Program-made: the position numbers and the translations under genes
The notes under the pieces: generated by a model
What the model was told of the DNA's origin: nothing
The model's input: only the letters and a program-made list of their open reading frames with translations
Database searches by the model: none
Shown here: positions 2,043-35,507 of the stretch, in pieces
How the letters are laid out: each line of letters opens with the position of its first letter
Numbering within the stretch: the stretch's first letter is position 1
Source: Calditrichia bacterium
GTDB lineage: Bacteria; Calditrichota; Calditrichia; Calditrichales; Calditrichaceae
Length of the DNA: 42,351 bases
Assembly (NCBI GenBank): GCA_026983775.1
Contig: JALSTK010000131.1
Location: forward strand, 1 to 42,351
Direction of reading: 5' to 3'

Positions 2043-2210
2043 TTATCTTCTTCTAAAATCCTGTTCATAAATTTCCTGAACTACTTTCTGTAAAATTTCG
2101 TCGCGATCATAATATTTATTGCGAATACGAAGCCTGATTAATTCCAGTTTTTCCTTTTCTATGTCAAATTTTTTCTGAGAGTTATCCATTATTTTCTTTT
2201 TTCTTTCCAT
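2043..2210 (-). CDS. Small FlgM-like protein, candidate anti-sigma-28 factor (55 aa)
   Basis: A short ORF of 55 residues, highly charged, with the core LELIRLRIRNKYYDRDEILQ followed by KVVQEIYEQDF. This resembles the C-terminal, sigma-28-binding half of FlgM (pattern: hydrophobic-x-x-hydrophobic-R-x-x-I-x-x-x-x-Y-x-x-D-x-x-x-hydrophobic). It is shorter than usual FlgM (about 90-100 aa) and lacks most of the flexible N-terminal half. An internal ATG at codon 8 is an alternative start and has GGAAAG upstream. Two features support a real gene: a FliA-type sigma factor lies upstream on the same strand, and a sigma-28-like promoter sits 39 bases before the ATG. The family assignment is a judgement by eye. 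Confidence 0.6.
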   Translation of the reverse strand: MERKKKIMDNSQKKFDIEKEKLELIRLRIRNKYYDRDEILQKVVQEIYEQDFRRR

Positions 2211-2248
2211 TGCATTCAGCGAATATATTTAAATTTGATTTAACTTAA

Positions 2249-2275
2249 CAATCGGAAGATGGCTAATAAACTTTA
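2249..2275 (-). promoter_or_regulatory. Sigma-28 (FliA) type promoter before the FlgM-like gene
   Basis: Minus strand: TAAAGTTT at 2275-2268, an 11-base spacer, then TCCGATTG at 2256-2249. The enterobacterial FliA consensus is TAAAGTTT-N11-GCCGATAA, so the -35 matches 8/8 and the -10 matches 5/8 with exact spacing. It fits the known autoregulatory logic in which flgM is transcribed by sigma-28. Confidence 0.6.
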
Positions 2276-2366
2276 ACGGATAAAAAAATGTGGATGAAAT
2301 TTTACCCTACTTCATAGACGAAACATTGAGCACAATAAATATAATTAGAGGGGGCGATAGCCTTAA

Positions 2367-3506
2367 TCACTTAACAGGAATATGAACGATAAACTTATTG
2401 CCTACGGTGTTCTCCGGGTCGACTTTTAACGTTCCACCGTGAGCCTCGATGGCCAATTTACAAAAGCTAAGGGCCAGGCCGCGCCCCAAACGGTAACCTT
2501 CATTTTTAATCTCAACCTGACTAAATTTATCGAACATACTTTCACTGTACTTAGCGGGAATATGTACTCCAAAATCGTGGATTATAAATTCAATGGCCGA
2601 ATCATTGTGTACCGTGTCAATTTTCACTTTTCCCCCGGGTTCCACATTGGCGGCTGCAAAATTAATCAGGTTATCCAGAACCCGCTCCATTACCGAGGTA
2701 TCCAGTTTTACAAAAGGCATATTGTCACTGAGGTTTAATTCAATCTCTTTTTTCTCATTCTCCGGATAGTCCCAGATTTTACCCACCGATGTTTTGACCA
2801 GATCATTTAAATTCCCCAGGTCAAGAGCAAGTTGCATGGACCCGTCTTCGATTTTAAAAATATCGATCAGGTTCAGAACCATTCGTAATAAATTTTGAGT
2901 ACTTCTTTCAATCCTGCTAAAATATTTACGGGCGGTGGGAGGCAGGGAATCTCCCAAACCCATATCGAACATTTGTAAATTACCCTGGATAACAAATAAG
3001 GGATTTTTCATATCATGAACAATGAGGTGGCTTAACTCTTCCTTAAACTGATCCATTTTCAGCAAGGCCTGATTTTTTTCTTTCAATTCCTCGTTTTTCG
3101 ATTCCAATTCATCATGGTATTGTTTAATGCGCAAAAGCGATTTTACGCGGGTTAATAATTCCACATTTTCGAACGGTTTGGAAATGAAATCATCGGCACC
3201 TACTTCCAAACTGCGAATTTTGTCCTTTAATTCTTTGAGGGCCGTAATCATGATGATAGGGATAAAACGGGTAGACGGATCTTTTTTAAGGCGCTCGCAA
3301 ACCTGAAAACCATCCAAATGAGGAAGCATAATATCCAGTAATATAATATCCACCTTTTGCTCCTCGACCACTTTTAACGCTTCAAGACCATCACGGGCGG
3401 TTAAGAGATTGTACTTTTGAGGTTTTAAAAAATAAGCAATTAAGTCGATGTTTTCTTTATTATCATCAACAATTAAAATCGTAGGATGGCTGTTTTTTCC
3501 TGGCAT
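2367..3506 (-). CDS. Response regulator-histidine kinase hybrid (REC-HisKA-HATPase)
   Basis: 379 residues with no signal peptide or membrane segment, so cytoplasmic. Residues 8-125 form a receiver domain with acidic pair D14/D15, phosphoacceptor D58, T88 and K110. A coiled coil (about 128-155) leads to a HisKA helix with H164 in the motif VHDMKNPL. A C-terminal HATPase_c domain follows. The ATP-binding boxes deviate: the N box reads NLINFA rather than NLxxNA, the G1 box DFGVHIP rather than DxGxGIP, and the G2 box GRGLALSF rather than GxGLGL. Kinase activity may be weak or absent. It lies between the sigma factor and the FlgM-like gene on the same strand (gaps 122 and 156 bases), which suggests a role in the same circuit. 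Confidence 0.88.
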   Translation of the reverse strand: MPGKNSHPTILIVDDNKENIDLIAYFLKPQKYNLLTARDGLEALKVVEEQKVDIILLDIMLPHLDGFQVCERLKKDPSTRFIPIIMITALKELKDKIRSLEVGADDFISKPFENVELLTRVKSLLRIKQYHDELESKNEELKEKNQALLKMDQFKEELSHLIVHDMKNPLFVIQGNLQMFDMGLGDSLPPTARKYFSRIERSTQNLLRMVLNLIDIFKIEDGSMQLALDLGNLNDLVKTSVGKIWDYPENEKKEIELNLSDNMPFVKLDTSVMERVLDNLINFAAANVEPGGKVKIDTVHNDSAIEFIIHDFGVHIPAKYSESMFDKFSQVEIKNEGYRLGRGLALSFCKLAIEAHGGTLKVDPENTVGNKFIVHIPVK

Positions 3507-3628
3507 GATCGCTTCCCGAAATAAAATCCACTTGTGATGCCATCAATTTAAGACGCTATAACAGAGAATTGCAACTAAAAAATAATTCCAGGGATATCCT
3601 CCGGAGTAACTTCGGCAAGATAACCGGC

Positions 3629-4384
3629 TTAGGCATAGGTCATTTTATTAATTTCTTTTCTCAGTTTGGCCATGGTCTCCGAATGAATCTGAGATATCCG
3701 GGATTCCGATACGTTCAAAATATTGCCGATTTCCTTGAAGGTTAGCTTTTCATAATAGTAAAGCGTGATCGCCAAACGCGTCTTTTCCGGAAGCTTCTTA
3801 ATTGATTTGAGTAGTAATCGTTTCATTTCATCTTCTTCAATTTTTTCATCGGGATTAATGTAATCTGTATCTTCTACCACATCATATAAATTTTGTTTAT
3901 TGGTATCATCAAGAGGTTTATCCAGGGAATAGAGGTTGGTCGAATTGATATCCCTTCTCCAGTTATTCAAACTTCGTCGGTCAATTCCAAGTCCGTTGGC
4001 CATCTCTTCGTCCGAATAATTTCCGGAAAACTTTTGATCCAGTTCAATACTTTTTTCCCGGATCGTATTCAGTTTGGAACGGAGCGAACGGGGGATCCAG
4101 TCTAATTTCCGCAGCTCGTCAATAATCGACCCTTTAATACGAGGGATGGCATAGGTTTCAAATTTAATTCCATAGGCCGGGTCAAAACGATCAATGGCTT
4201 CGGCCAGACCTAAGATACCGATCTGATACAGATCATTTTCTTCCAGAGCTTGTGGATAATTCTTGATCATCTTCCGTACTACATATTTGACCAAACCAAC
4301 ATATTTCAGCACCAGCTTCTGTCGCGAAGGTACATCATTTGCCCTTTTATACTGCAACCATAACGGATCGATAGCTTTTTGCAT
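3629..4384 (-). CDS. fliA: RNA polymerase sigma factor, FliA/WhiG (sigma-28) family
   Basis: 251 residues, the normal length for the family. Region 2 contains YVVRKMIKNYPQ, DLYQIGILGLAEAIDRFDP and the hallmark RIKGSIIDELRKLDWIPRSL. Region 3 follows, and region 4 carries the helix-turn-helix LTFKEIGNILNVSESRISQI. FliA-type sigma factors read TAAA/CGAT promoters, typically of late flagellar, chemotaxis or, in non-flagellated lineages, developmental and surface genes. The start ATG has AGGGG five bases upstream. A sigma-54 promoter lies about 50 bases before it, and two sigma-28-like promoters are nearby. No flagellar structural gene is in the window, so the regulon could be non-flagellar. WhiG is an equally valid name. 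Confidence 0.93.
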   Translation of the reverse strand: MQKAIDPLWLQYKRANDVPSRQKLVLKYVGLVKYVVRKMIKNYPQALEENDLYQIGILGLAEAIDRFDPAYGIKFETYAIPRIKGSIIDELRKLDWIPRSLRSKLNTIREKSIELDQKFSGNYSDEEMANGLGIDRRSLNNWRRDINSTNLYSLDKPLDDTNKQNLYDVVEDTDYINPDEKIEEDEMKRLLLKSIKKLPEKTRLAITLYYYEKLTFKEIGNILNVSESRISQIHSETMAKLRKEINKMTYA

Positions 4385-4433
4385 GTTAACCCCTGTATTT
4401 TAGTGATCATATCCCCATACGGATAAATACTTT

Positions 4434-4449
4434 AGCATAAGCCGTGCCA
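4434..4449 (-). promoter_or_regulatory. Sigma-54 (-24/-12) promoter of the fliA-like gene
   Basis: The minus strand reads TGGCACGGCTTATGCT from 4449 to 4434. The -24 element TGGCACG is perfect and the -12 element ATGCT matches 4/5 of TTGCW. The GG and GC dinucleotides have the required 12-base register. Transcription would start near 4423, giving a leader of about 40 nt with the AGGGG ribosome-binding site. Confidence 0.75.
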
Positions 4450-4664
4450 GTTCAGGGGAATATTTTTCCCTTTTTCTTTGTAAGTATCTGTTTTAGATTG
4501 ATATAAGGCTTCTATTTTCCTGCTTCTTTTTAGGAAAAGCAGGCCTGGATATCTGCTCTTTCCGTGTTTTTTGTATCTTTTTTCACCATCAAAGTGTCGG
4601 AATATTAGGCACAGTTCCGAATTGATTCAGTTAACATGAGATGCATTAATTTCAGAATCTTTCT

Positions 4665-4691
4665 TAAAGTTTTCCCTATATAGGTCGATTT
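4665..4691 (+). promoter_or_regulatory. Sigma-28 (FliA) type promoter before the outer-membrane barrel gene
   Basis: TAAAGTTT at 4665-4672, an 11-base spacer, then GTCGATTT at 4684-4691. The -35 matches the FliA consensus 8/8 and the -10 matches 5/8 of GCCGATAA. It lies 82 bases before the ATG at 4774 on the correct strand. Confidence 0.6.
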
Positions 4692-4773
4692 TAACACTTT
4701 TAACTTGCGTAATTCACTTGATTTTACTATGCTTAGATCAAGGGAAATCTTACATAAAATTTAAGGAGACGAC

Positions 4774-12132: not shown

Positions 12133-13488
12133 TTAAGAAATCGTTTTTATTTTTAGCTCGTCCATCTTTCTATACAAAGAAGAAAGACTGATATCGAGCA
12201 TTTTAGCTGTTTCTTCTTTATTATTAGCCGTACGTTGCAAGATTTGAATAATATGTTCTCTTTCAAAGGCTGCAACCGCATCTTTTAAGCGGTCCGGTAT
12301 GGGACCCCTAAAATCCGAATCGATCATATTGGGCGGAAGATCCTCGGGTGTAATATAGTTTCCTTCACAGAGAATTAAGGCCCGTTCAATTACATTTTCC
12401 AGTTCCCGTATGCCCCCTTTCCAGGAATAATTCATCAATATACGCATGCTCTCATTATCGACATTGAGAATTTTCCGATTCATTTCCTTATTATATTTAT
12501 TGATAAAGTGATGGATCAGCAGAGGAATATCCTGCCTTCTTTCGCTTAGAGACGGTAATTTGATTTCCACCACATTGAGGCGGTAGTACAGATCGTCACG
12601 GAAAGCGCCTTTATCCATCTCTTTAGCCAAATCACGATTGGTGGCCGCTATAATCCGTACATCAATTTTAACAGGGTTGGTCCCGCCAACGGGTAGAATT
12701 TCGGACTCTTCAATCGCCCTTAATAATTTGACCTGAAGGTGCAAGGGAATATCCCCCACTTCATCCAAAAACAGAGTACCGCCATTGGCCATCTTAAAAT
12801 GTCCGTCCTTATCGCGAACCGCTCCGGTAAAGGAGCCCTTTACATGACCGAAGAATTCACTTTCCATCAAGGTGTCTACAATGGCTCCGCAATTAATAGC
12901 CACAAACGGTTTATGTTTGCGATTACTATTGTAATGTATGGCCCGGGCCACTAATTCTTTACCCGTCCCGCTGGGACCACTGATCAGAACATTACTCTTC
13001 GTCCTGGCTATTTTTTCGATAAGCTTAAAAATTTTTTTCATCTGGGGACTTTGACCGACGATATGGCTGAAATCATAGCGTTCTTCCACTTCCCTGAGAA
13101 GAGACTGATTCTCTATGATCAATTCTTTATGTTTGATCAAACGTTTGATTTTGAGAAGCACATCTTCAAAATCGAAGGGTTTAAGGATATAGTCGTAGGC
13201 ACCCATACGCAAAGCCTGAATAGCGGATTCCAGGCTGGCATGAGCGGTAATGATCATTATTGAAGTCTGGGGACAAATTTTCCGACACCTTTCGAGTAAG
13301 GCCAATCCGTCCATTTCTGGCATTTTTAAATCGGTGATAATAATATCGAAGTTATTTTTTTCGGCCTTTTCTATGGCTTCTATACCGTCACTGGCAATAT
13401 CGGAATGGTATCCTTCCTCATCCAAAACCATCTGTAAAGAATCACGAATCGTGCGTTCATCATCTACTATAAGAATATCAGCTTTCAT
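12133..13488 (-). CDS. NtrC-family sigma-54-dependent response regulator
   Basis: 451 residues from the ATG at 13488, which lies inside the 3' end of the kinase gene (11-base overlap); a start at 13518 would add ten residues before the receiver. The receiver domain has D9/D10 and phosphoacceptor D53. The AAA+ domain has Walker A GPSGTGKE, the sigma-54-contact loop GSFTGA (usual GAFTGA) and Walker B GGTLFLDEVGDI. A C-terminal Fis-type helix-turn-helix ends in KEETAKMLDISLSSLYRKM. It activates sigma-54 promoters when phosphorylated, presumably by the kinase encoded just upstream. Candidate targets in the window are the -24/-12 promoters before fliA and perhaps the diiron protein. Confidence 0.94.
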   Translation of the reverse strand: MKADILIVDDERTIRDSLQMVLDEEGYHSDIASDGIEAIEKAEKNNFDIIITDLKMPEMDGLALLERCRKICPQTSIMIITAHASLESAIQALRMGAYDYILKPFDFEDVLLKIKRLIKHKELIIENQSLLREVEERYDFSHIVGQSPQMKKIFKLIEKIARTKSNVLISGPSGTGKELVARAIHYNSNRKHKPFVAINCGAIVDTLMESEFFGHVKGSFTGAVRDKDGHFKMANGGTLFLDEVGDIPLHLQVKLLRAIEESEILPVGGTNPVKIDVRIIAATNRDLAKEMDKGAFRDDLYYRLNVVEIKLPSLSERRQDIPLLIHHFINKYNKEMNRKILNVDNESMRILMNYSWKGGIRELENVIERALILCEGNYITPEDLPPNMIDSDFRGPIPDRLKDAVAAFEREHIIQILQRTANNKEETAKMLDISLSSLYRKMDELKIKTIS

Positions 13489-15205
13489 CTTTTTCCATTT
13501 GTTTAACGGGAATTTCAATAATAAAAGTACTGCCTTTTTTTAATTCACTCTCGACATGTATATTCCCGTTGAAGTTTTTTATAATGCCATAACTGACCGA
13601 TAAGCCGAGACCGGTTCCTCTGCCTACTTTTTTGGTTGTATAGAACGGTTCGAAAATCTTACTAAGATTTTCTTCCGGAATTCCCGAACCGTTGTCTTTG
13701 AATTGAATGAGCACGTGATCCTCTTGTAATTCCGAGCGAATATCGATCTTTCCCGAACGATGTTTCAAAGCATCGACCGCATTGATCAATATATTAAGAA
13801 AAACCTGCAGCAGTTGGTCGGAAACCAGGTAAATAGTCGGTAATTGATTGGACAGATCCATTCTGATCGGAACGTGTTTAGCCCGGCGATCATATTTAAC
13901 AATACCTACCGCATGCCGAATAATTTCATTGACGTCGACATAAGTGGCCTTATAGCTTGAAGGCCTGGAAAAATCGACCAGTTCTCTGACAATTTTCGAG
14001 ATGCGATCAATATTTTTAAGGATCGTATCCAAATATTGGGTAATCTGATCGCTTTTCACACGGCGCTTAATAATCTGAGCCATGGATGAGATGGAAGTTA
14101 ATGGATTACCGATTTCATGGGCAACTCCGGCAGCCAGCAGACCGAGACTGGCCATTTTTTCCTGATGAGAAATCTGAAATTGAGCCTCCCGCAAGGCCTG
14201 GGATCTCTCTTCAACCTTGGATTCCAGATTGGCATACGATTCTTGCAGTTTTTGACGCATCTGCTCGAATTCGTCTGCCAGAATCTTGATTTCATCTCTG
14301 GCCTGAATATGAATCGGTTGCCGTAAATCCCCGTTGCTGATCACATTTGCCGCAGCAACTAAATCTTGTATCGGACCCGTAATTCGTCTGGATTGCAAGA
14401 TAGCCACAATGAGCATCAGCAATCCGATAATCAGATTCGCTATAAAAATCTGTTGCAGGAAATGAATCAAATCTCCATAGACCAGGAGTTTCGGCTTTCT
14501 GCTAACCAGGCTCCACTCCGCATCCAAATTCATTTTTGTCTCAATATAAGGCGGTCCGGGGAAAAGAATGCGGCTTAAAAACGGATTTATTTCACTAACT
14601 TTTCTATGGGCAAACTTTTTGCTTGTAAAAAATTGTTTGTGTTTATTAAATAATAGAAATTGAATTTCATTATTATAGCTTTTTAAACGACGAGCTATCG
14701 ATTGCTCCGGTAAACGCAACCAGGCACGATACCCTACCGGTAATTGGATTAAAAGAAATAAGGAGTGAGTATCCTTATCGTAAAGCAAATGACTGCTGTC
14801 GGGAGAAGAAATACGGAATTGTTGAAGAAGAGTTGAAGAACATCCTGTTTGCGTCAACAGGCTTCGGTCTTTTTTAAAAACAGCGAATGATTGGATAAAC
14901 CAGCTCTTTAAAAAATTTGAATGAAATATCTTCTTCCGGCCGGTGAGCAGGAGTTGGTTATGGGCATGGGAGAATTCATTACGTGTCGAAAGATTAAGGG
15001 CATCAAAATAGTCGGTTAAACGATCGATTGCGATTGCGGTTACTTCATTTAAATTTTGCTCATGAACATGACGGATACTACTCTTATTTAAGTAATACCC
15101 AATAATGCTGAAGACTAAAAGAGGAACGTAAGCAAATAATAGAAAATAAAAAATGAACTGAATATTTAAACCCGAAAAGACTCTTCGAGATCGCTTTAGA
15201 TTCAT
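13478..15205 (-). CDS. Membrane sensor histidine kinase, partner of the NtrC-type regulator
   Basis: 575 residues. Transmembrane segments at about 14-40 and 251-271 enclose a periplasmic sensing region of some 210 residues that I do not recognise (possibly a Cache-like fold). A HAMP linker (SRRITGPIQDL onward, about 272-325), a coiled coil, a HisKA domain with H363 in VAHEIGNPL and a full HATPase_c follow (INAVDAL, DNGSGIPEENL, GRGTGLGLSVSYG). The intact boxes predict an active kinase. The overlap with the downstream regulator gene supports a dedicated pair. The signal is unknown; the co-oriented maeB-ptb-buk genes hint at carbon or redox status. Confidence 0.92.
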   Translation of the reverse strand: MNLKRSRRVFSGLNIQFIFYFLLFAYVPLLVFSIIGYYLNKSSIRHVHEQNLNEVTAIAIDRLTDYFDALNLSTRNEFSHAHNQLLLTGRKKIFHSNFLKSWFIQSFAVFKKDRSLLTQTGCSSTLLQQFRISSPDSSHLLYDKDTHSLFLLIQLPVGYRAWLRLPEQSIARRLKSYNNEIQFLLFNKHKQFFTSKKFAHRKVSEINPFLSRILFPGPPYIETKMNLDAEWSLVSRKPKLLVYGDLIHFLQQIFIANLIIGLLMLIVAILQSRRITGPIQDLVAAANVISNGDLRQPIHIQARDEIKILADEFEQMRQKLQESYANLESKVEERSQALREAQFQISHQEKMASLGLLAAGVAHEIGNPLTSISSMAQIIKRRVKSDQITQYLDTILKNIDRISKIVRELVDFSRPSSYKATYVDVNEIIRHAVGIVKYDRRAKHVPIRMDLSNQLPTIYLVSDQLLQVFLNILINAVDALKHRSGKIDIRSELQEDHVLIQFKDNGSGIPEENLSKIFEPFYTTKKVGRGTGLGLSVSYGIIKNFNGNIHVESELKKGSTFIIEIPVKQMEKDES

Positions 15206-30342: not shown

Positions 30343-30524
30343 ATATTTTACGTCTTCAGGAAGATTCTGCTGAGAGATATCTAAAAATACTATTCCGTTA
30401 ATTTGACGGGTTTATCTTCCTGAACGACCGTATTTTTTATCCCTCTTTAATAAGATGTACTGGGTAATCGGAATGTAATTGCTATTAAAGCGAATGATAT
30501 TCCGGTTATCTATGCTTTGAAATG

Positions 30525-30553
30525 TTCAAAACGGGTATTATTGTGAATATTAT
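30525..30553 (+). promoter_or_regulatory. Possible sigma-70 promoter of the nonaheme cytochrome
   Basis: TTCAAA (30525-30530), 17 bases, TATTAT (30548-30553). The start of transcription would fall almost on the ribosome-binding site (GGAAGG), so an upstream promoter is also possible. Confidence 0.3.
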
Positions 30554-30572
30554 AACATGGAAGGAAGTTCCA

Positions 30573-32306
30573 ATGAAATTTGATAAAAACACCTTTATAA
30601 ATATATCCCTTTTTCTGGGCTTGTTTGGTCTGCCTCTTTTTACAGTAGCCCAATCCACACTCGACTGTAGTTTGTGCCATAACACGAATCATACCTTATG
30701 GCTCAGCGGATCCCATGCCAACACACAGAATGATGTGGCCGATGAACTCGCTGAAGAATGGATCGGCCTGTCGGCAGATTCGGTGATTTTGGGTTCGGAA
30801 GCGGAAGATTGTATCGCCTGTCATGGACCGATAGCGGTTACGGTAAACGGGGGTATGACCGAGGTCGAAGCTTTAAATCACTTTTTTACAACCACCAACG
30901 GTCTGTTTACGGATTCCACCCATGCCGCAGACTCTACCAATTGGCCCCATGTTTATTGTACAACCTGTCATAACGTTCCTACCGATCATCCCGCAACGAT
31001 GCCGACTTTCGCTTTATTTAATTCGGCGACAGCGGAATATAATACGGTTGACAATAAGTCGTCTCTCTGTGGTCAGTGTCATGGTACTCTAAAGTTTTCG
31101 GATACGGACCATCGGGTTTTTGACGCCTGGATGATGAGCAAACACGGACATGGCGGTCAGGCGGACGTAGCTTCGGAATTAGCCGAAGAATGGGCCGGTT
31201 CTGCACCAGACAGCGTGATCAACGGTAGTGAAGCCGAAGACTGTATTGCCTGCCATGCTCCGACTTCGGTTCTATCAGCAAAAGCAGATAGTGTAATCAG
31301 CGAAAGCGAAGCGTTAGCTCGATTTTTTACAACCAACAACGGCGTGTTCGACGAATCTACCGTTCCGGCAGATTCTGCCAATTGGCCGGATGTATCCTGT
31401 ATTGCCTGCCATAATCCGCACAAACCGAATGTACCTGCTCTGTTCGATTCCCAAACAGGCGAATATGTGAACATGGATTCACCACAGCAATTATGCGGCC
31501 AGTGCCATGGTAACCTGCGTTTTCCGGATACGGATCATCTTAGTTATAATATCGAAGCCGGAACCGGCGGAATGGGAGTCGATGACGCCCTTACCATGCC
31601 CGGAGTAAAATGTGTCGACTGCCATATGCATGTCGGGGATGTGGATGGTAGTAATGCTGCTATGTATGGTGGACATACCTGGAGTATTTTTGTTACCGAA
31701 GCGGATAATAGCGTCACTGCCTCTTGTACAACCTGTCATAGCAGCATGAATGCCGCGGCTGCAGAACAACAAATCGATAGCTGGATATCCGAATTCGCTG
31801 CCCTGGATTCCACGGCTCAGGCCAAGGTGGCGGAAGCCGATGCACAAATGGTAGGTAACACCGATCCCACCAAATTACAATACCTGGAAGAAGTCCATCA
31901 TAATCTGGATTTTGCCGAATCCGATGAGAGCGGTGGTTTTCATAACCATACTTATTCCATGGCTCTGCTAAACGACGCTATACAGAAAGCGGACCTCATC
32001 ACGGGATTGACGGACCCGGATCATTCCAACCTTCCCATGCAGTTTACTCTGGCCCAAAATTATCCGAATCCGTTCGGCCTCAACCAAACAACCCACATTA
32101 CATACCAAATTCCAAAAACGGGCCTTGTCAATTTAACCGTTTACAATATGTTGGGACAAAAAGTTAAAGAATTGGTCAATCAGGAGCAGAAAAGAGGAAC
32201 GCACCAGATTCTGTTTAATGCTTCCGGTTTAGCCAGCGGAGTATATGTCTATAAACTGGTCAGTTCCAATCGGACCTTTATGAAAAAGATGTTAATCATC
32301 CGATAA
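30573..32306 (+). CDS. Secreted nonaheme cytochrome c with T9SS-type C-terminal sorting domain
   Basis: 577 residues from the ATG at 30573 (AAGGAAG upstream), with signal peptide ending near FTVAQ. Nine CxxCH motifs have their first cysteines at 32, 80, 129, 166, 224, 276, 308, 347 and 385. Residues 48-180 and 190-322 are tandem copies of equal length, each with three hemes (SEAEDCIACH and LCGQCHG in both). The segment 440-474 (VHHNLDFAESDESGGFHNHTY) resembles the C-terminal helices of NrfA/octaheme reductases. Residues 490-577 (FTLAQNYPNPF, GLASGVYVYKL) are a Por/T9SS sorting domain, so the protein is probably exported and anchored on the cell surface. A role in extracellular electron transfer or reduction of an N or S compound is possible. 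Confidence 0.9.
   Translation: MKFDKNTFINISLFLGLFGLPLFTVAQSTLDCSLCHNTNHTLWLSGSHANTQNDVADELAEEWIGLSADSVILGSEAEDCIACHGPIAVTVNGGMTEVEALNHFFTTTNGLFTDSTHAADSTNWPHVYCTTCHNVPTDHPATMPTFALFNSATAEYNTVDNKSSLCGQCHGTLKFSDTDHRVFDAWMMSKHGHGGQADVASELAEEWAGSAPDSVINGSEAEDCIACHAPTSVLSAKADSVISESEALARFFTTNNGVFDESTVPADSANWPDVSCIACHNPHKPNVPALFDSQTGEYVNMDSPQQLCGQCHGNLRFPDTDHLSYNIEAGTGGMGVDDALTMPGVKCVDCHMHVGDVDGSNAAMYGGHTWSIFVTEADNSVTASCTTCHSSMNAAAAEQQIDSWISEFAALDSTAQAKVAEADAQMVGNTDPTKLQYLEEVHHNLDFAESDESGGFHNHTYSMALLNDAIQKADLITGLTDPDHSNLPMQFTLAQNYPNPFGLNQTTHITYQIPKTGLVNLTVYNMLGQKVKELVNQEQKRGTHQILFNASGLASGVYVYKLVSSNRTFMKKMLIIR
30714..31538 (+). repeat. Internal duplication in the nonaheme cytochrome (two 133-codon copies)
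   Basis: Copy A spans 30714-31112 and copy B 31140-31538. Shared blocks include DELAEEW/SELAEEW, DSVI-GSEAEDCIACH, EALxxFFTTxNG, NWPxVxC, LCGQCHG and a closing FxDTDH. Divergence of the copies suggests an old event. Confidence 0.85.
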
Positions 32307-33767: not shown

Positions 33768-35507
33768 TCATTTGTTTCCCAAGCTTTTATGCAAATGATC
33801 TAAAAGTCGCTGGTAATCGGCCCCCAGAACAAGCACATAATTCACGGTGTGATCGGGAAGGGGTAGCTTAAAACGAAAATCATACTTTCTCCCGAGAAGT
33901 TGATTCAGCTTTTTGATGTTCCGGTCCGGGAAATGATTGCCCATAACAAAGGTTTGGGCAACTCGCCAGTTTAATTTCCCGCCCGGTCTGTAATTTTCAA
34001 CATACGTAACCCGATACCCGGCGGTCGTTAAAATTTTTTCCAATTGATGGGCAATGCCCTTTTCACCCATACCGTTCAGAATGGCAATCCGAATCTTGCC
34101 TCTCGACACTTTTCGTTCAATCTCTTTTTTAACTGTAAGATATGCAGGATCATTTGCAAGCAACTTATCCAACGCTTTGGAAATTTCCAGGGCCTTGCCT
34201 GGAGAATCCGTCTTTATTGCTTTTTGAATATCCTGAAGTGCCCTCTTCTTAATATTCTTAATTTTTCGAAAAACATCTGTATCATTTGGTTTGATCCGAA
34301 AAGCCTGTTTGTATAATTCCAGGGCATTATTCCCAGTCGGCAGATATAAATAGCCGTTTTTCATTTTTTCTTCGGCCTGGCGTAAAAGAGCCTGGTACAA
34401 GCGCACCCGAAATGTATCCGGCCGGGTAGTAACCGGCGTCTTTCCGACAGAAGGAACCGTTTCTTTACCGGATGGGGCAATTGAATTCATTTTATGTAAC
34501 AGATAGCCCATGACCAGAATCAGTAAAAACACGATTATCAGAAATTTATAGGTAGGATTCGTTGATTTTGTCGGTTTGTCTCTTCTTACCAGGATATTCC
34601 TGGACCCCGGCACTTTTTTAGGGACAGAGGAGGCCGAAACAGGTTCTTTGGAGAAATACCGTTCTTTGGCAAGAGAAAGGGCCTGGCGCATTTCCGCGGC
34701 CGTTCTGAAACGATCCCAGGGCTCTTTAGACAGACACTTTAGCAGTACCTGATTGAGTCCGCTGGAAATATCCCCGACCGGCTTGGCTTTCTCCCTCAGA
34801 ATTTGGGTATATACATCTCCTCTGTGAAAGGGAGGATGCCCGCTAACCAAATCATACAGAGTAGCGCCCAGGGAATATATATCGGACGGGATACTCAATT
34901 GTTTACCGCTCAACTGTTCCGGGGACATATAAAGAATAGTCGTATGGGTGGAGGTATCCCAGACCATAGATGCGGCCACCCGCACCATTTCCGAAATCCC
35001 AAAATCTATCAGGGTTACCTTGCCGTCCGGGGCAAGCACCACATTTTTCGGTTTGATATCGCGATGCAATACATTATGGTCATGGGCATATTCCAGAGCA
35101 TCCAGAATCTGAATTCCAAGCCAACGCACAATGTTTTCAGATAAACGTTTATCGGATTTTTCCAGTTTTTTTTGTTTTAAGGTCTTTCCCCTTACAAATT
35201 CCAATTCCAAAAACCACGACGGCCCGTCCTGATGCACATCATACAGACGGGCAATTAAAGAATGATTCAACCAACGGATCAAGCTCACCTCTTCCCGGAT
35301 ATAGGTCAAAGCTTCCGAATCATCCGTTACCGATTGCGGGATGTAAAACAATATTTTTTTCAGACCTTGTTTTCGATCTTTCGCCAGATAAATTAAGCCC
35401 AGACTGCGGGGAACCGGCTTACTCAGTACTTCGAATCGATCGATGATTACCTGGCCGATTTGATAAGCCGGAAAATCCTGATTGGCAAACAGACTGCTAA
35501 TTTTCAA
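33768..35507 (-). CDS. Ser/Thr protein kinase-like membrane protein with LytR_C domain
   Basis: 579 residues beginning at a TTG (35507) with AGGAA six bases upstream; no nearby in-frame ATG fits. The kinase-like domain (24-280) keeps HRD (148-150), K152, N155 and DFG (168-170), and SPEQ and SDIYSLG are present. The glycine loop is degraded, and the beta-3 strand KKILFYI has Phe or Tyr where the VAIK lysine belongs. A linker, a transmembrane helix (321-338), a helical tetratricopeptide-like region (about 365-460) and a C-terminal LytR_C domain (RIAILNGMGEKGIAHQLEKI) follow, facing the periplasm. A role in cell-envelope signalling is likely; catalytic activity is doubtful. It is the last gene of an ndk-pepC-selB-kinase set. 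Confidence 0.85.
   Translation of the reverse strand: MKISSLFANQDFPAYQIGQVIIDRFEVLSKPVPRSLGLIYLAKDRKQGLKKILFYIPQSVTDDSEALTYIREEVSLIRWLNHSLIARLYDVHQDGPSWFLELEFVRGKTLKQKKLEKSDKRLSENIVRWLGIQILDALEYAHDHNVLHRDIKPKNVVLAPDGKVTLIDFGISEMVRVAASMVWDTSTHTTILYMSPEQLSGKQLSIPSDIYSLGATLYDLVSGHPPFHRGDVYTQILREKAKPVGDISSGLNQVLLKCLSKEPWDRFRTAAEMRQALSLAKERYFSKEPVSASSVPKKVPGSRNILVRRDKPTKSTNPTYKFLIIVFLLILVMGYLLHKMNSIAPSGKETVPSVGKTPVTTRPDTFRVRLYQALLRQAEEKMKNGYLYLPTGNNALELYKQAFRIKPNDTDVFRKIKNIKKRALQDIQKAIKTDSPGKALEISKALDKLLANDPAYLTVKKEIERKVSRGKIRIAILNGMGEKGIAHQLEKILTTAGYRVTYVENYRPGGKLNWRVAQTFVMGNHFPDRNIKKLNQLLGRKYDFRFKLPLPDHTVNYVLVLGADYQRLLDHLHKSLGNK

Follow-up and report, generated by a model that had tools for sequence, protein, structure and literature searches.

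A probable non-flagellar sigma-28 module with a sigma-54-type promoter and a shortened FlgM-like protein in Calditrichota

Introduction

In flagellar systems of the sigma-54 type, the class II/III hierarchy leads from sigma-54 to the sigma-28 factor FliA, and from FliA to the anti-sigma factor FlgM. In Salmonella, the N-terminal half of FlgM is needed for its export, and release takes place by export through the flagellar hook. FliA is often used as a marker of flagella, yet it is retained by many non-motile genomes; one survey found it in 41% of non-motile genomes (PMC12199754). In Legionella oakridgensis, FliA and FlgM have been kept without the flagellar regulon (PMC5655016). In Actinobacteria, the FliA-clade sigma factor WhiG, which is paired with RsiG, controls type IV pili and c-di-GMP genes, and the c-di-GMP motif of RsiG is E(X)3S(X)2R(X)3Q(X)3D (PMC8325347). 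Among the Calditrichota, Caldithrix abyssi possesses a full flagellar gene set, yet flagella were not seen by microscopy (PMC5317091).

Here, we analyzed a window of 42,351 nucleotides, i.e. the whole stretch of DNA under study, from a Calditrichota genome of 4.03 Mb (family Calditrichaceae). An original prediction made from the letters of this window had proposed a cascade from sigma-54 to a FliA-like factor and on to a FlgM-like protein and a surface protein, possibly with a role outside the flagellum. In a literature search conducted mostly outside subscription journals, we found no description of this Calditrichota module.

Results

Organization of the locus and its promoter sites

The module consists of fliA, a gene for a REC-histidine kinase and a gene for a FlgM-like protein of 48-55 aa, and it is kept across three families. 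The features of the locus are presented in Table 1.

Table 1. Features of the sigma-28 locus, with positions counted from the first letter of the window
Feature	Position	Strand	Basis or remark
Putative outer-membrane beta-barrel protein, 434 aa	4774-6078	(+)	Synteny, signal peptide, low-confidence model
TTGATTTTACTATGCTTA element	4718-4735	(+)	Upstream of the barrel-protein gene; TTTTACTATTCTTA-like stretches in relatives, judged by eye
Sigma-28-type site TAAAGTTT-N11-GTCGAT	4665-4689	(+)	84 nt upstream of the barrel-protein ATG; possible lineage-specific input
Sigma-54-type -24/-12 site TGGCACGGCTTATGCT, TGGCACG-N4-ATGCT	4434-4449	(-)	About 50 nt upstream of the fliA start (4384)
FliA/WhiG-type sigma-28 factor, 251 aa, probable non-flagellar copy	3629-4384	(-)	TIGR02479, tree
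Cytoplasmic REC-HisKA-HATPase hybrid kinase, 379 aa	2367-3506	(-)	Pfam; gene after fliA; phospho-acceptor His and REC Asp conserved in 10 relatives
Predicted sigma-28 promoter TAAAGTTT-N11-TCCGAT of the FlgM-like gene	2251-2275	(-)	About 40 nt upstream of the FlgM-like gene
FlgM-like anti-sigma candidate, 55 aa (first Met) or 48 aa (second Met, 2189)	2043-2210	(-)	hhalign, PF04316 in relatives

The three promoter-like sites named in the original prediction were confirmed, and comparison with shuffled sequences places them well beyond chance. The sigma-54-type site TGGCACGGCTTATGCT is matched nowhere else in the window (0.00 expected from shuffling), and the pattern TAAAGTTT-N13-CGAT has two matches against 0.02 expected, a number that no shuffle reached. 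A scan of the whole 4.03-Mb genome, as originally proposed, returned only four perfect matches to the latter pattern, of which two are the intergenic sites of the window and two fall within long ORFs. The site upstream of fliA has a GG-N10-GC core in a context of the TGGCAC-N5-TTGC type, and RpoN is encoded in the source genome. The site upstream of the FlgM-like gene agrees with the canonical FliA/WhiG promoter, TAAA(GTTT)-N11-(G)CCGAT, at the cognate gene, and it would be used by the sigma factor of the window.

Both sites are conserved. The sequence TGGCA[CT]...TGC was found upstream of fliA at a similar position in 19/19 genomes (the window included), and TAAAG-N15-CCGA upstream of the FlgM-like gene in all 17 genomes in which this region was readable, including the single-contig 5-Mb genome G005. 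The absence of the motifs from close relatives had been named beforehand as an observation that would count against the cascade; the presence of these two in every readable relative instead supports the proposed order of sigma-54, FliA and FlgM-like protein.

Additional genes of the window were noted. A TonB-dependent-receptor-like gene (1-1721, (-)) follows the FlgM-like gene, and similar genes lie just past the module in three relatives (L068, L073 and L193). An NtrC-type sigma-54 activator with REC, Sigma54_activat and Fis-type HTH domains (12133-13518, (-)) stands beside a HAMP histidine kinase (13478-15205, (-)). It lies approximately 8 kb from the sigma-54 promoter of fliA and is a possible activator; we do not claim it as the activator of fliA, because in relatives no such gene was detected close to the module. 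Further along, a multihaem cytochrome (30522-32306, (+)) shows MtrC/MtrF-like and c552-like matches and a C-terminal Por_Secre_tail sorting domain of the type IX secretion type, and a Ser/Thr protein kinase (33768-35507, (-)) carries a C-terminal LytR_C domain.

The window sigma factor and a separate flagellar FliA

The window sigma factor belongs to the FliA/WhiG family, with a TIGR02479 score of 241 bits (cut-off 189.6), regions 2 and 4 above the Pfam cut-offs and a weak region 3. Its closest solved structures are those of Streptomyces WhiG (entries 6pfv and 6pfj, which we take to be WhiG) and E. coli FliA, and its relatives come nearly all from Calditrichota, the closest being named Calditrichaceae or Caldithrix. 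FliA of the window type is present as a single copy in the source genome. A search at lower stringency identified a second FliA, 29% identical to the first, at C68:8968-9693, in an operon that reads flhB-flhA-flhF-flhG-fliA-flgF-flgG and onwards (gene names assigned partly by order and sequence). This arrangement recurs in 13 other flagellated genomes (G003, G005, G006, G007, G009, G011, G012, G016, G017, G019, G020, G024 and G027). Caldithrix abyssi, which is in culture and probably corresponds to G005, appears to carry both FliA copies. Maximum-likelihood analysis placed the six flhA-operon FliAs that were included in one clade (100/100) and all 32 FliAs of the window type from the class in another (100/100), the placement of the long branches outside these two clades being uncertain.

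The flagellar genes of the source genome, i.e. FlhA, flagellin and rod/hook genes, are located on contigs C68, C38 and C135, and two tandem FlgM-like genes of 116 and 118 aa stand behind the flagellin operon (L180:5661-6506; G000:C38). Owing to the second FliA in the flhA operon and these two genes behind flagellin, the cell seems to possess two sets of FliA and FlgM. The earlier remark that no flagellar gene is nearby therefore holds within the window and fails for the genome, which has its flagellar operons on other contigs. The window FliA itself is neither located with flagellar genes nor matched by a cognate promoter before the flagellins of families f1 and f2.

These results bear on the possibility that the window gene is an ordinary flagellar FliA that was simply relocated from the flagellar cluster and has FlgM and a regulator as neighbours. 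The TIGR02479 family is flagellar in many bacteria, and in family f3 a window-type FliA (55% identical) lies in the flhA operon, with no other close FliA present, which suggests that the window-type copy was once flagellar and was moved later. However, the corresponding slot is filled by the second FliA in the source genome and the 13 others, relatives without flagella keep the window copy and lack the flagellar one, and flagellins lack the window-type motif, so that we regard a simple relocation as very improbable.

Retention of the module in relatives without flagella

No match to FlhA, Flagellin_N or Flg_bbr_C was found in the genomes G001 (96% complete), G008 (94%) and G022 (92%). All three carry fliA, the kinase gene, the FlgM-like gene and the outer-membrane-protein gene in order, with both promoter sites, and a second (flagellar) FliA was not found in them. 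The genomes G010 and G026 look the same at lower completeness, and in the flagella-less G029 and G025, which belong to other families, a window-type FliA is kept and a REC-kinase homologue is encoded close or next to it (50% and 32% identity, respectively). Since the genomes are mostly MAGs, these absences are less certain than the presences. Relatives without flagella have kept the module, and therefore the window copy most likely runs a different programme. It is important to mention that no window-type FliA was found in G012 and G015, which are flagellated and fairly complete, and this counts against such a reading.

The FlgM-like small protein

The window small protein alone gave no match in Pfam (FlgM included) or NCBIfam, and its relationship to FlgM was revealed only through its relatives and profile comparison. 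The family alignment has an invariant core, I-x-LRI-x-N-xx-Y. When compared by hhalign, the family matched full-length FlgM of other Calditrichota families with a probability of 96.7% (E 3.4e-10) and the flagellar FlgM-like set of the source genome with 78.6%; four of the 12 family members match PF04316 (FlgM), the best with an E-value of 1.2e-4, below or at the cut-off. These matches support the proposal that the small gene encodes a FlgM-like anti-sigma candidate. The pattern (K/V)xxIRxxIxxxxYxxxxxxI of the C-terminal sigma-28-binding half is present. The N-terminal export half is missing: the protein has 48-55 aa (the second Met is possible as its start instead of the first), and flagellar FlgM-like proteins from the same class are 95-118 aa long.

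We also considered an anti-sigma factor of the RsiG type, armed by c-di-GMP as described for WhiG in Streptomyces and Rubrobacter. The WhiG structures closest to the window sigma factor and the c-di-GMP proteins among the candidate targets (see below) would be in keeping with it. The RsiG motif (PMC8325347) is absent from the sequence of the small protein, whose family matches the FlgM profile; RsiG identity was thereby rejected for this protein, and the corresponding mechanism appears extremely improbable. A search of solved structures with the small-protein profile returned nothing meaningful.

Candidate regulon and flagellin promoters

In 22 genomes, the strict motif was found 68 times, compared with 61 times for a reversed-pattern control. 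Because the totals barely exceed this control, most single sites except the FlgM-like promoter could be due to chance. A directional signal can be observed: for 13 of the other 54 strict sites, an ORF begins 20-65 nt downstream in the correct orientation, and for none of them in the mirrored position (P = 1.2e-4). In the one-mismatch set, which overlaps with the strict set and includes a FlgM-like promoter, the numbers are 18 versus 5 (P = 0.005). Orthologous genes of different genera recur downstream of the sites, namely those encoding an LpoB-like lipoprotein (G007 and G008; 52%), an unnamed lipoprotein (G003 and G007; 45%) and a MerR-like protein (G007 and G012; 48%). Other candidate targets encode PilZ, REC-HD-GYP, PAS/GAF, MASE3-PAS, hemerythrin and STAS proteins. 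The individual targets should be taken as candidates. The original idea of a surface programme is consistent with the lipoproteins and envelope proteins of this set; it is only partly right, because signalling proteins are mixed in.

Four genomes (L156, L176, L218 and L220) additionally carry the sequence TAAAG[AT]TT-N12-CCGA some 145 nt upstream of an HU-like gene. This gene was rejected as a target, the site being that far upstream and beside a sigma-70-like promoter.

No match to the motif was found on the flagellar contigs C38, C68 and C135 of the source genome. The flagellins of families f1 and f2 lack the window-type motif (scores from -2.3 to 8.5, versus 10.7 for the 99% level of the null), and the FlgM-like promoters score between 13.4 and 26.1. 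One f4 flagellin (G024) has a borderline site with a score of 11.1, which counts against a non-flagellar role. Before the flagellins of f1 and f2 (L104, L097, L102 and others), a conserved element can be seen by eye, which reads approximately TTTAAGAA, a spacer and CACGACC-TATGNAGTA. This element is unlike a canonical sigma-28 promoter and may be the promoter that the diverged flagellar FliA uses.

The types of candidate targets leave room for an explanation in which both FliAs take part in motility, the window type serving a flagellum-linked subset such as c-di-GMP turnover or stators and persisting, in relatives without flagella, as a relic that is being lost. PilZ, REC-HD-GYP, PAS/MASE3 and hemerythrin proteins are indeed common at the edge of motility regulons. 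However, at least three separate genomes without flagella contain an intact module with conserved promoters, which does not resemble decay, and the source-genome contigs on which flagellar genes were found contain no site; we therefore hold this explanation to be unlikely. A non-flagellar role, as originally suspected, is supported by the separate FliA in the flagellar operon, by the module in flagella-less relatives and by the lack of the motif before flagellin.

The outer-membrane-protein branch

The barrel-protein gene is divergent from fliA in families f1 and f4, and in f2 it is absent from this place, where the rest of the module stays. The protein has a signal peptide, and its structure model shows alternating strands; at pLDDT 52, this model is of low confidence and was too poor for a fold search. 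A partial match to the ImpL63 family (E 2.4e-13) is far below the cut-off. The perfect sigma-28 site before the gene is present in the source genome, and in 12 relatives it is missing or degenerate, with even a degenerate version (CGAT at the same spacing) in only two of them. A TTTTACTATTCTTA-like stretch recurs upstream of the gene in several relatives, as judged by eye, and TTGATTTTACTATGCTTA is likelier to be the general promoter of the barrel-protein gene than the sigma-28 site.

The module could be regarded mainly as a surface-protein switch with the divergent outer-membrane protein as the chief output of FliA, a reading to which the perfect site and the divergent synteny in f1 and f4 would lend some weight. 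The loss or degeneration of the site in the 12 relatives, the recurrence of a different upstream element and the absence of the gene from this place in f2 make it distinctly unlikely. The outer-membrane protein, which the original prediction had treated as a general output, is not supported as such, and this branch of the putative circuit is weak.

Discussion

The locus is probably a non-flagellar sigma-28 module, a reading in which binding, transcription, the mechanism of release and the biological role are inferred. According to the mechanism that we propose, a sigma-54 activator would turn on fliA, and RNA polymerase with FliA would then transcribe the small FlgM-like gene, whose product would hold FliA back as a negative feedback. 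The same polymerase would transcribe a limited number of genes for envelope and signalling proteins at other places in the genome, and the flagellum would rely on its own diverged FliA and two FlgM-like proteins. Of FlgM, the small protein retains just the sigma-binding C-terminal part, which makes export through the flagellar hook an unlikely way to release FliA. Release of FliA by regulated degradation or via the neighbouring REC-histidine kinase would be likelier than export, and is offered as a guess; a part for the kinase is tentative, with chances somewhat below even.

With slightly more confidence than doubt, we suggest that one cell contains two sigma-28/FlgM circuits with different promoter specificities. 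The copy with the canonical sequence and the TAAAGTTT-N11-CCGAT promoter may have been recruited, under sigma-54, to a programme of envelope and signalling functions outside the flagellum. Its anti-sigma factor lacks the export half, a phosphorelay protein would probably provide the new way of release, and the flagellum may be served by the diverged copy. Because one genome holds both versions and the non-flagellar one outlives the loss of flagella, the two roles should be separable by simple gene removal. The module also raises the question of how a FlgM-type inhibitor without an export half is released.

The order of sigma-54, FliA and FlgM in the Calditrichota module is the same as in the class II/III flagellar hierarchy, whereas its predicted outputs are non-flagellar and the flagellum has its own FliA and FlgM. 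Sigma-28 of Chlamydia likewise acts outside a flagellar setting and beside sigma-54, but it serves late developmental genes, and the available parts of the reports mention no FlgM-like partner gene (PMC12282069, PMC10597470). The WhiG-RsiG system of Streptomyces and Rubrobacter shares with our module a FliA-clade sigma factor, the canonical flagellar promoter and reassignment outside the flagellum, and c-di-GMP proteins are among the candidate targets. Its anti-sigma factor, unlike FlgM, is c-di-GMP-bound RsiG, its targets include type IV pili, which were not seen among the Calditrichota candidates, and no sigma-54 input is described in the available part of the account (PMC8325347). The pair of L. 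oakridgensis resembles the module in several respects: FliA and FlgM occur without flagella, FlgM regulates negatively, and release is thought to proceed via degradation and not export (PMC5655016). In that species a single pair was left after flagellar loss, whereas two parallel pairs occur in flagellated Calditrichota genomes; further differences are the predicted control by sigma-54, the kinase linked to the module and the shortened FlgM. FliA-FlgM without flagella was thus already known; what is new is the occurrence of two parallel FliA-FlgM pairs in one genome together with an anti-sigma candidate without the export half.
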